Below are positions 36,601 through 62,366 of a DNA stretch of 64,000 bases, piece after piece. The notes under the pieces are model-generated. The model saw nothing but the letters and a program-made list of their open reading frames with translations, was not told the origin of the DNA and ran no database searches. This DNA is from Sclerotinia nivalis. Taxonomy: Eukaryota > Ascomycota > Leotiomycetes > Helotiales > Sclerotiniaceae. The stretch covers positions 1 to 64,000 of the forward strand of contig CM055954.1 in assembly GCA_029531795.1 (NCBI GenBank), given 5' to 3'. Each line of letters begins with the position of its first letter. Positions within the stretch are counted from its first letter, which is position 1. The translations under genes and the position numbers were made by a program.

Positions 36601-39600
36601 TAGGATCAAGACAATATGCCTGGGATACAACATTAAAAATGTTTAGTTTCCATCAGAGACTAAACGTAGAGTATCCAAATAATAAAATATATGACCATTC
36701 AAGGTCAATTAATAAATCTAAATATTATGAAAACGGAGATATTTTTAATCAATGATTAATAGGTGTTACAGACGGGGACGGTAGTTTTACTATTTCTAGA
36801 TTGTCGGAAGGTAAATGAACTCTTTTCTTTAAAATAACTCAAAGTACTTATAATCTAAGAATGTTGTATTTCATAAAAAAACAACTAGGTGCTGGTTCAG
36901 TAAACACAACTGCAAATAATCAAAAAGCAGACTTTAGAATAAGAGATAGAAAAACTATTGGTTCTATAATTATACCTATTTTTGAAAAAAATCCTTTGTT
37001 AACTAGCTTCCTGCTAGGCTTGCCTAGCTGAAGCTAGGCAGAGCCTAGTAAATATCACTCATATGAAAAATTCAAAAAAGCTTATTATATTTTAGAGAAT
37101 ACTAATTTATCCACTGCCTTCATGCAAGACCAGTACTGGTCTTGCATGAAGGATAAGAAAAAGATAATTTATTATTAGAATTGCAAAGTGAACTCGCTTC
37201 GCTACCAAATAATTATATCTCATCTGCTTGAAAAATAGTAAATTCAACTATTAATAACACTAATGAGGCTAAATTAGTTATGAGTAAACCTTGACTTATC
37301 GGTTTCACAGAAGCAGAAGGTAGCTTCTATCTTGTAAGTAAAGATTCTACTAGGATTGTACATGCTTTTGAAATAACTCAAAAATTGGACATTATAGTTT
37401 TAAAAGCTATATCTCTTATTTTAGGTATAGGTTTAGCTAATAAAAAAACATATAATACTGTAGTAACTACAAACTCTCGTGCTATTTCCAATATAATAGA
37501 TTATTATACAAATACATGTAAAGGAATGAAAGCTGTGGAATTTAGAATATGAGCAAGATCTTATGTAAAACATAAAGGAAATTTTTGTGCTCCGCAAAGA
37601 AGGGCGTTACAAAAAATAAGAATAATTATTAGAAATCTTAGATCTATTAGATTAGATAAAGATTTTCATAATAAAAATAAAGATTAATAAATATTATTTG
37701 GATAAAGACATAGTCCAATCCATCATGTGAATGATGGACATAACGATAGTATTTCTATTAAATTGAAGGATTATAAAGCTAATAGCTAATAAAAATTCTG
37801 GGGGCTCCGCCCTACACTTAATTAGAAATATGAGGTTATGTATACAATTGTTACCCTCCTGCCGAATGATTTTGGGAATCACTCATGTGGGAAAAACTAT
37901 CAAATTCCGGGGACACTCTAGAACTTCTGGTACCAAGCTGTAGTTTAAAAGCTATAAGTGGATGAACTAATCCCTCATGTAAGGTAACAAGTCAGAAGGC
38001 TTCTGAAAAGAATGTGGGTAATCGCGGATCTAAATCAATAATACCCGGCGAAGCCGATATTACTGTAAAAGAGCAACGAGTATACGGTAGTTGGCCAGGT
38101 AATATCTTACCTAGCTTAAGATATACTCTAACGGGTTTCGAAAGAAACTATCCAATAAAAACCCTTTCTAACCAAATACGCTTGCCGTTAATTCGAAAAT
38201 TTTCTTCAATATCTCCGACGTCTTCAATTAAAAATCCTGACATTGAGGTAAGAAGTTGTGCTTTTCATCCTTGATTTATAACAGGATTTGTCTTATTTTT
38301 TCCCCTTTTTTTATAATTATAAGTTTATTATCTATATAGTAATAAAATTATTTATTAAAAAAAAGGGGAAAAAATTAGGAGAGGGTTCGTTTATGATTAG
38401 AGTTAGAAAAAACCCTAAATACCGTACAGGTTTTTAGTCGAAGCAGTTTTTTCAATAGCTTTACATAAAAAGGACCTCGTTATATTACAAGAGATTCAAT
38501 CTTATTTTGGAGTAGGTAGTATAAGGAATGAGGCGAAGGATAAAGTAAAGTTTAGAGTCGAATCTGTAAAAGAGATTGTTAACAATATAATTCCACACTT
38601 TCAAAAATACCCTTTAATAACTCAGAAGTTAGCAGATTATCTTTTATTCAAAGATGTTGTTGACATGATGATAAATAAAGAGCACTTAACTAAGGAAGGT
38701 TTAAACAAAATTGTCTCAATTAAGGCTGTGATTAATCTGGGTTTACCGGACGAGTTACAGGTTTCTTTTCTTGATATTAGACCTACGCCGAGACCTTTGG
38801 TGCAAAATAAAACAGTACCAGATGGCCAGTGAATTGCTGGATTCACTTCCGCTGAAGGTTGTTTCAAAATAACATTAGTAAAACGACCTAATAGAAAAAT
38901 AGATCAAGTATACTTAGTCTTCCAAATAACTCAGCACTCTCGGGATGAAAAATTACTGGAGAGTTTTATTTCTTTTTTTTTGGTGCGGAATATTAGAAGC
39001 ATCTTCAAGAGATCTTGCTGTTAATTTTTCGGTCTACAAGTTTTCAGATAATTACGAAAAAATTATTCCGTTTTAAAAAAAACATAATATTTTTGGAGTA
39101 AAATCAGATGACTTCAAAGATTGATGTAAAGCCGCTGAAATAATCAAAGCTAAGCAACATCTAACTGAAGAAGGGTTAAATATGCTTATTTCACTAAGAT
39201 CACCCCACCCCCACCCCCTTTGGGGAAGGGGGAGGGGGGATCCCCCTGGGGGCGATCTGGTACAAATAAAGGAAGATCGCTCGAGTAAATACAAAAGACT
39301 GGTTATTTGCTATTATAAATTTTTTATTTTTCTATCTTGAAGGAGTTTTTACCGAGTAGAACTATTATTTATTTTAAATAAGTATGTAGTCCTTTATTTT
39401 TGCCTTTTTTTTTTTAATAAATAGTTTAATTACTACGTCCGGAGGACGTAGAAATTAAACAAGACGGAGCCGGCTAGTTTAATTACTACGTCCCTTATCC
39501 TCCGGATTAGGGGGGGGGGGGACGTAGAAATTGAACAAGGCGGAGCCTAGTTTAATTACTACGTAGTAATTTATTTATAATTATAAAAAAAAAGGAAAAA

Positions 39601-61205: not shown

Positions 61206-62366
61206 AAAAATCCATTTCTATCGTGATAGTCGCAAAGTTGTAATGTGGTTAATGGGCCGGCATAGCCGAGCTTTTATACATACAACTAGGTCTATACAAA
61301 ATTTAGAAAGCCTCACTTCTTTACGAAGTAAGGAACGTGAGCAAGTAAATAACATCTCTACATTAGTAAAACCCACCGCGTTAAATATAATCAAGTTAGA
61401 TCCTTGGTTTGTAACGGGGTTTGTAGACGCAGAGGGATGTTTTATGTTGGGTATGTTCGTTAGTAGCAAGTACAGAATGGGTTATCAAGTTCAAGCCATA
61501 TTTAAGATTAGTTTAGACAATAAGGATTATGATTTATTGTGCAAGATTCAAGATTATTTGGGAGTAGGTAGTATTATGAAGCACGGGAGCACTTCTTTAC
61601 AATATACGATTAAATCTTTGAAAGATTTCAGTATAATTATATCTCATTTTGAGATACATCCGCTGATTAGCCAAAAATGGGCTGATTACGAACTTTGAAA
61701 ATCAGCTATCACATTAATTCAAAACAAGGAACATCTAACTAAAGATGGTTTTAATAAGATCCTTAGCATTAGAGCTTCTATGAATTTAGGTTTATCTGAT
61801 GAATTAAAGCTAGTTTTCCCGGATATTCGCCCGGTTTCTAGACCTTTACTTAAGGATAAATATGTAAAAGATTCAAACTGATTAGCAGGTTTTACTTTAT
61901 TTTTTCCCCTTTTTTTTTAATTATAAGTTTATTATCTATATAGTAATAAAATTATTTATTAAAAAAAAGGGGGAAAAATTAGGTGAGGAATGTTTCTACA
62001 TTTCTATACTTAAATCATCTACTTGTAAAATAGGTAAAGCTGTAATATTAAAATTTCAAATAGCTCAACATAGTAGAGATACTGAGCTTATGAGAAGCTT
62101 AATATCTACTCTTGGATGTGGTAGAATTGAACTAAACTTAGCCAGATCTACTGTTAATTTTTTTAGTTACAAAATATACGGATATTAGCGATAAAGTAAT
62201 ACCATTCTTTGATAAATACCCCCTTAAGGGTGCTAAAGTTTCAGGTTATAATTATTTCAAACAAGTATCTATTTTAATGAGTAAGAAAGCTCACTTAACT
62301 GAACAAGGATTATCTGAAATTCAATCTATAAAGTCCAAGATGAATATCCTTAGACGTTCTGTTTAA
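61206..62366 (+). pseudogene. LAGLIDADG homing endonuclease with a hairpin in its second motif
   Basis: Frame open from within the core (about 61036). First motif [18 protein letters not shown] intact; LTKDGFNKILSIRASMNLGL; second motif NWLAGFT | 82-bp hairpin | LGEECFYISILKSSTCKI. A one-base slip in a T-run near 62160 shifts the frame again before KYTDISDKVIPFFDKYPLKG. Ends MNILRRSV, TAA. Same family as rnl intron 3. Confidence 0.87.
61897..61981. repeat. AT hairpin element inside a LAGLIDADG motif
   Basis: TTATTTTTTCCCC to GGGGGAAAAATTA, loop as at 38293 and 44559; net 82 bp; removal restores G-F-T-L-G-E-E-C-F. Confidence 0.92.

Follow-up and report, generated by a model that had tools for sequence, protein, structure and literature searches.

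Recurrent insertion of hairpins into the LAGLIDADG_1 motif DNA of homing genes on a mitochondrial contig of Sclerotinia nivalis

Results

The DNA encoding codons 5-8 of the LAGLIDADG_1 motif of homing endonuclease genes (homing genes) is shown here to be a recurrent insertion point on contig C31 (GenBank CM055954.1; 170,583 bp), a fungal mitochondrial contig in the 50.3-Mb assembly of Sclerotinia nivalis, both for a family of hairpins with T-run/CC arms (the T/CC family) and for two hairpins unrelated to it. A predicted LAGLIDADG_2 homing endonuclease gene uses the same point in one other contig and in three proteins. The inserted elements vary, whereas the point in the motif does not. The window, by which we mean the whole stretch of DNA analysed, comprises bases 1-64,000 of C31 and contains exons with matches to Proton_antipo_M and COX1, plus many homing genes; the 76 PF00961 matches listed for the assembly are all on C31.

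Five hairpins interrupt LAGLIDADG motifs of the window where the preliminary description of this DNA had placed them, after G-F-(V/T/H) and before (G/A)-(E/D)-G, with the insert at 48343 ending at 48427 if GAA is taken as codon 6. These hairpins, the remainders of four of the interrupted domains and a related copy are as follows.

38293..38377, + strand: T-run/CCCC hairpin of subfamily A, 85 nt, in the first motif (GFV / GEG) of a homing gene; codon 6 missing
44559..44643, + strand: subfamily A hairpin, 85 nt, in the motif GF.. / GEG; codon 6 missing
48343..48427, + strand: subfamily B-like hairpin, 85 nt, in a first motif (GFH / EGDG); codon 6 readable as GAA after the insert
48788..48877, + strand: subfamily C-like hairpin, 90 nt, in the second motif (GFT / AEG) of the gene with the 48343 hairpin; codon 6 missing
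61897..61981, + strand: subfamily A hairpin, 85 nt, in the second motif (GFT / GEE) of a homing gene; codon 6 missing
38378..38658, + strand: what is left of the interrupted LAGLIDADG_1 domain, its frame broken again around profile position 24-27
44644..44910, + strand: remainder of the interrupted LAGLIDADG_1 domain, profile positions 7-101
48878..49153, + strand: remainder of the interrupted second LAGLIDADG_1 domain, profile positions 7-100
61982..62267, + strand: what is left of the interrupted second LAGLIDADG_1 domain, split over two frames with a break near profile position 66-70
57974..58055, + strand: subfamily A copy outside the homing genes, within a CCTCCTC..GAGGAGG hairpin

The homing gene with the 61897 hairpin adjoins the Proton_antipo_M (nad4) exon. 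Each of the five hairpins folds better than 200 of 200 of its own dinucleotide-preserving shuffles, with z values of -3.2 to -7.7. The hairpins at 38293, 44559 and 61897, noted earlier as nearly alike, have an exact 44-base stretch in common, a fourth copy of which, with one mismatch, is the one at 57974-58055. TTA or TTTA, which had been described at both edges of the inserts, was found there in four of the five and not at 48343, and since it also borders family copies in unrelated places, it looks like part of the element and not like duplicated motif DNA. The protein P0076, which is closely related to the 61-kb gene (95% identical over 41% of the query), reads GFTNGEGCF where that gene is interrupted, and this uninterrupted motif, a single case at the protein level, suggests that the 61-kb insertion is probably recent.

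The motifs of the whole contig were compared using a domain profile, which was built from 46 uninterrupted LAGLIDADG_1 domains and searched against the stop-to-stop frames of C31, and the interrupted motifs were recognised by eye from the flanking translation because the part of a motif that precedes an insert is too short to be detected with the profile. As a result, 70 LAGLIDADG_1 motifs on C31 were found to be uninterrupted, whereas nine were interrupted between codons 5 and 7 (GFx / xEG), in agreement with the earlier claim of repeated insertion at one point of this coding DNA in diverged hosts. The nine comprise the five in the window and four elsewhere, with inserts at contig positions 87126-87451, 100392-100406, 100933-100977 and 157961-158036. 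Seven of the inserts contain hairpins of the T/CC family; the other two, both at 100 kb, are the unrelated hairpins, and no second copy of either was found on C31 within the allowed mismatches, except for one partial match of the GC-rich insert at 47736.

Reading on from codon 5, an in-frame stop lies within each of the nine inserts; the reading frames end there, which would disarm the hosts, as the preliminary description had proposed. A further break is present in 4 of the 9 interrupted domains compared with 10 of the 70 others (hand count, p 0.047). Both motifs are struck in two genes, at 48 kb (inserts 48a and 48b, at 48343 and 48788) and at 100 kb (100a and 100b), and the frames of the doubly interrupted 48-kb gene are open on either side of its inserts (47977-48405, 48410-48814 and 48818-49279). 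Codon 6 is absent in the inserts at 38, 44 and 61 kb and in 48b, is readable after the insert in 48a, in 100a and at 158 kb, and is possibly so at 87 kb and in 100b. Gly at codon 7 is found in 7 of the 9 struck motifs and in 35 of the 70 uninterrupted ones, which is not a significant difference (p 0.16). As a separate candidate, the motif DNA was considered as a palindrome centred on codon 6 and rejected, with a dyad score of 2.6/8 (3-base loop) against 2.3 for the genome and no peak.

The clustering at the motif point is far beyond the uniform expectation. When uniform placement is assumed, as in all of the following tests, the 9 of 19 insertions inside LAGLIDADG_1 domains that fall within 3 of the 101 codons give a p of ~1e-9, the other ten being at profile positions of about 16, 16, 17, 19, 28, 44-63, 51, 58, 58 and 71-83. 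The domain counts were made by hand, and the 19 omit in-frame extra DNA within one fragment (e.g. 47546-47866 and 31734-32093), gaps shorter than ~25 nt and plain frame shifts (e.g. 110997). For the T/CC family alone, 7 of 10 domain insertions are at the point (p ~2e-9), and genome-wide 7 of its 42 loci are there against 0.18 expected (p ~5e-10).

An endonuclease gene inserted at the same point in some genomes, which would be the mark of a homing site, is seen as DNA in L019, a contig from IMG/VR. Its second motif, DPNWVSGFV, is followed by ~1.15 kb with a 239-aa LAGLIDADG_2 frame, beyond which the LAGLIDADG_1 domain picks up again from profile position 9. A search of this insertion for a group I core gave nothing at E <= 1, with another group I intron of the locus being found, and a decayed intron is possible. 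At the protein level, P0242 and P0137 run from GFxDA into LAGLIDADG_2 (PF03161 E 3.9e-6 and 1.2e-24, respectively), and for P0160, which has no Pfam match, the same is judged by eye alone. The host part of P0242 resembles the 38-kb gene of the window (54% over 94%), and those of P0137 and P0160 resemble the 100-kb gene; judging from these resemblances, related hosts carry hairpins in C31 and an endonuclease gene elsewhere at nearly equal codons. A tree groups P0137, P0242, L019 and L047:3144 together (99/97).

In the IMG/VR contigs, where domains were counted only in loci with at least two of them (102 of 145), 83 of the 102 distinct domains begin intact, 4 begin at profile positions 7-9 (L017, L019, L021 and L027), 1 at position 3 and 14 later. 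Two bases stand in place of codon 6 in L027, and the motif is altered in L017 and L021; no T/CC hairpin was found in these three or in L019. L016-L027, which are held in a viral collection, are homing-gene-rich contigs resembling fungal mitochondrial DNA, and such contigs are probably fungal mitochondrial DNA. A search with alignment A4 (the domain without the motif) matched 79 and 8 stretches, none of which was confirmed, and contig searches gave no match with P0242 and no contigs beyond those already found with P0192, P0137 and alignment A5.

Breaks at the same codons were also found in proteins of other fungi. The searches with the 61-kb, 100-kb and 38-kb genes, of which the best 120 of 4089, 403 and 313 matches were used, yielded 357 different proteins with 479 matches to the motif pattern, including non-motif ones such as P0011 and P0304. 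Of these, 382 reach profile position 90 or beyond, and the other 97 were read by eye. Among the matches listed, reading by eye at the protein level places a break at codons 5-8 in at least 15 homing proteins: P0192, P0248, P0273 and P0357 with T-run tails; P0165, P0200, P0201, P0221, P0243, P0269, P0271 (with a near copy, P0293), P0300 and P0346 with other tails; and P0242 and P0160, which continue into LAGLIDADG_2. P0137 is a third fusion, which was missed by the motif pattern and is outside the 15. About five proteins (P0012, P0123, P0127, P0313 and P0327) break at codons 9-16 by eye, and a broader group does so at 17-25. The break counts exclude proteins whose last residue is normal and those with just one to three odd residues at the end, apart from P0201, which has three and was included. 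An automatic lesion histogram gave seven proteins with at least four odd residues after codons 5-7, one of which (P0011) is a false match and another (P0319) is absent from the by-eye list, and it misplaces P0242, P0160, P0357, P0165 and P0271, all of which break at codons 5-8 by eye. Short in-frame changes at codons 5-8 were observed in P0044 and P0102. Changes to V-H-A, V-R-S or V-R-R at about codon 8 occur in these two and in P0271 and P0293, and are possibly small GC-rich inserts.

The T/CC family at large was surveyed by nhmmer with a profile of 12 copies, which gave 125 rows to E 1 and 67 after merging; 42 loci on C31 have E <= 0.01, the limit used for all locus counts, and 38 reach 1e-4. 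These dispersed copies have a shared inverted-repeat structure, as is typical of mobile mitochondrial hairpins in general. The view that the family is aimed at the motif finds no support in that form: only 7 of the 42 loci are there, and the two unrelated hairpins and the LAGLIDADG_2 gene share the point. The random spread relative to homing-gene motifs, which the preliminary description had named as evidence against it, was observed for the majority of copies (35/42, outside the motif) and not for the cluster in the motif. Allowing up to two mismatches and counting overlapping matches, the arm pattern is matched 51 times where 0.28 would be expected, and it has 0 matches in each of the viral and genome contig collections. 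With up to 3 mismatches, the assembly contains four copies of the subfamily A loop, all of them on C31. Family copies are nested in one another and in other hairpins. The other copies in the window are listed below.

9041..9122, + strand: family copy outside the motif
15308..15387, + strand: family copy outside the motif
23334..23417, + strand: family copy outside the motif
27637..27791, + strand: nested pair of family hairpins, at about codon 16 of a LAGLIDADG_1 domain
30948..31109, + strand: nested pair of family hairpins
35448..35534, - strand: subfamily B copy, immediately preceding profile position 28 in a LAGLIDADG_1 domain fragment
39396..39605, no strand assigned: family copy with a GC-rich core
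52400..52481, - strand: family copy outside the motif
63760..63910, + strand: family copy with a GC-rich core

One subfamily was observed at a fixed place inside another four times (27637-27791, 30948-31109 and contig positions 111494 and 168836), as if the nested pair moved as a unit. A 36-base perfect palindrome with arms CCTTCATGCAAGACCAG recurs at 1362-1397, 2119-2154 (one arm with a single change), 20790-20825, 26723-26758, 30529-30564 and 37117-37152, and several of its copies beyond the window sit in the loops of T/CC hairpins. Elsewhere in the window, a 605-aa frame at 13448-15262 weakly matches the profile of VAR1, a mitochondrial ribosomal protein, under its cut-off, and near-identical duplications are present at 12348-13311 and contig 95091-96054 (98.8%) and at 12713-13494 and 55076-55856 (99.4%).

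Discussion

To explain why one point of the motif receives different elements, we tentatively propose that the motif DNA is a recurrent break or homing site at which hairpins are inserted or captured. It may be possible that the catalytic-helix DNA common to dozens of homing genes is the homing target of a dedicated LAGLIDADG_2 lineage, with the hairpins representing healed cuts. Enzymes of such a lineage would cleave other homing genes in their conserved coding DNA and home into the motif, whereas, when the break was healed without copying of the LAGLIDADG_2 gene, mobile mitochondrial hairpins would be captured or inserted at the cut. By either route, the frame of the host enzyme would end at the active site. 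Within the domain, the preference of the hairpins for pyrimidine/purine junctions is strongest at codon 6 and probably contributes to the precise placement, and the fungus would have been in contact with such a LAGLIDADG_2 enzyme in the past.

A serious, if less probable, alternative is that this site preference alone is sufficient, with hairpins entering pyrimidine-to-purine junctions, the motif DNA (GGTTTYAY / NNN / GGNGARGG) happening to be one and no enzyme being directed at it. At 27 hand-curated sites of the family outside the motif, a set that omits loci with unclear edges, the DNA is C/T-rich before and G/A-rich after the element, the mean pyrimidine/purine score is 9.7/12 compared with 6.0 at random positions and, with the score derived without the motif sites, the codon-6 point ranks first over 680 combinations of offset and spacer in the 70 uninterrupted motifs. 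At seven of these sites (subfamily B), the runs of C and of G may belong to the element itself; when these sites are dropped, matrices from the other 20 still have their maximum at offsets 14-19, around codon 6, in most settings, although without the flanking base and with a 3-base spacer, offsets -2 and 13 rank second and third. The full matrix places the interrupted sites among the best-scoring 0.3-7% of the genome. However, by these matrices no more than 0.2-0.4% of insertions should fall at the motif point, as against the 7/42 observed, indicating that the junction preference gives the place within the domain and not the excess, and it cannot account for the unrelated hairpins or the LAGLIDADG_2 gene.

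Another serious but less probable alternative is that one or a few founder insertions at codon 6 spread via the short homology of the motifs by gene conversion or template switching, with the loops later exchanged through the shared arms. Such a spread would fit the three near-identical subfamily A inserts in diverged hosts, the four inserts that lack codon 6, the two genes with both motifs struck and the shared orientation of all six simple family inserts (two-sided p 0.03), but the different subfamilies and unrelated hairpins at the point would require several founders, codon 6 can be read after the insert in three cases, and the flanks of the three subfamily A copies share, by eye, little beyond the motif.

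The byp elements of Magnusiomyces capitatus are short, lie in mitochondrial reading frames and are skipped by the ribosome, with matching take-off and landing codons around each insert. The inserts of C31 are similar in being short elements within mitochondrial reading frames, the TTA/TTTA at both edges of four of the five in the window could be such a codon pair and the 48-kb gene is open on either side of its inserts; nevertheless, skipping in translation or splicing out, by which the homing proteins would be whole as proposed for yeast mitochondrial bypassing elements, is very improbable because of the in-frame stops in all nine inserts, with like edges also at non-genic copies, no pair at 48a and several contig copies, the additional breaks in the interrupted domains and no sign of byp-like skipping found for the C31 inserts.

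The break or homing site could best join the observations, with the hairpins being passengers whose preference fits the spot, if only tentatively in view of several points that weigh against it. The entries were not all alike, since codon 6 survives at some inserts and not at others. The breaks in the homologous proteins are known from protein only and may be simple frame shifts, and 3 of the 4 cases with a homing gene are likewise known at that level. In the tree, L047:3144 falls within the motif-inserted group but is not placeable in a motif, the other three are not grouped without it, and P0242 is a long, partial row. Furthermore, the only LAGLIDADG_2 (PF03161) match found in the assembly, at contig 159167-159685 and, by eye, beside a cox3 exon, is outside that group, and hence no candidate cutter is known in this assembly. 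The T/CC family profile, for its part, gave 0 matches at E <= 1e-3 on loci other than C31.

Among known systems, the mitogenomes of Annulohypoxylon stygium contain small inverted repeats, often hairpin-forming, that vary between isolates; three of them fall in domain regions of LAGLIDADG_1 and another three in those of GIY-YIG, and the repeats are suggested by the authors to hinder homing genes and introns (Deng et al. 2018, PMC6140425). Those in LAGLIDADG_1 domain regions are like the C31 inserts in being short hairpin-forming insertions there, but that text, as far as available, reports no common motif point or homing gene at it (PMC6140425). The A/T palindromes of Fusarium tricinctum and F. 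avenaceum are likewise AT-rich, mitochondrial and inferred to be mobile, but differ in having shorter arms of plain A and T runs and an intergenic position, and no motif target is reported in the available part of that source (PMC7218506). Yeast GC clusters, the double-hairpin elements of Allomyces and the short elements of Podospora are also dispersed short mobile mitochondrial elements, but they probably differ in sequence, and the accessible portions of the sources state no homing-motif target (PMC7218506, PMC1864894). The group II intron in I-CthI is, like the hairpins, a mobile element inside a LAGLIDADG homing gene, but in nested introns of this kind, splicing restores the enzyme, and the extra residues from a cryptic splice site beside that insertion lie, according to the paper, in a linker, away from the LAGLIDADG motifs (PMC4801052, PMC8393795). 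No earlier report of the motif point as an insertion hot spot was found among the titles and abstracts listed in the literature searched, which covered few subscription papers, so that earlier reports may exist.

Homing genes are described, in the available part of one report, as decaying by accumulated mutations after invasion (PMC13405050). If the proposed break or homing site is real, homing genes would be lost in a directed manner, through a break point that they share in their most conserved codons, and the motif would be a multi-copy target exploitable by one parasite. The destruction of mitochondrial homing genes would thereby become a question for a cleavage assay and a countable survey. 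Taken together, the recurrent breaks in the motif suggest that selfish homing genes are themselves attacked at their most conserved spot.

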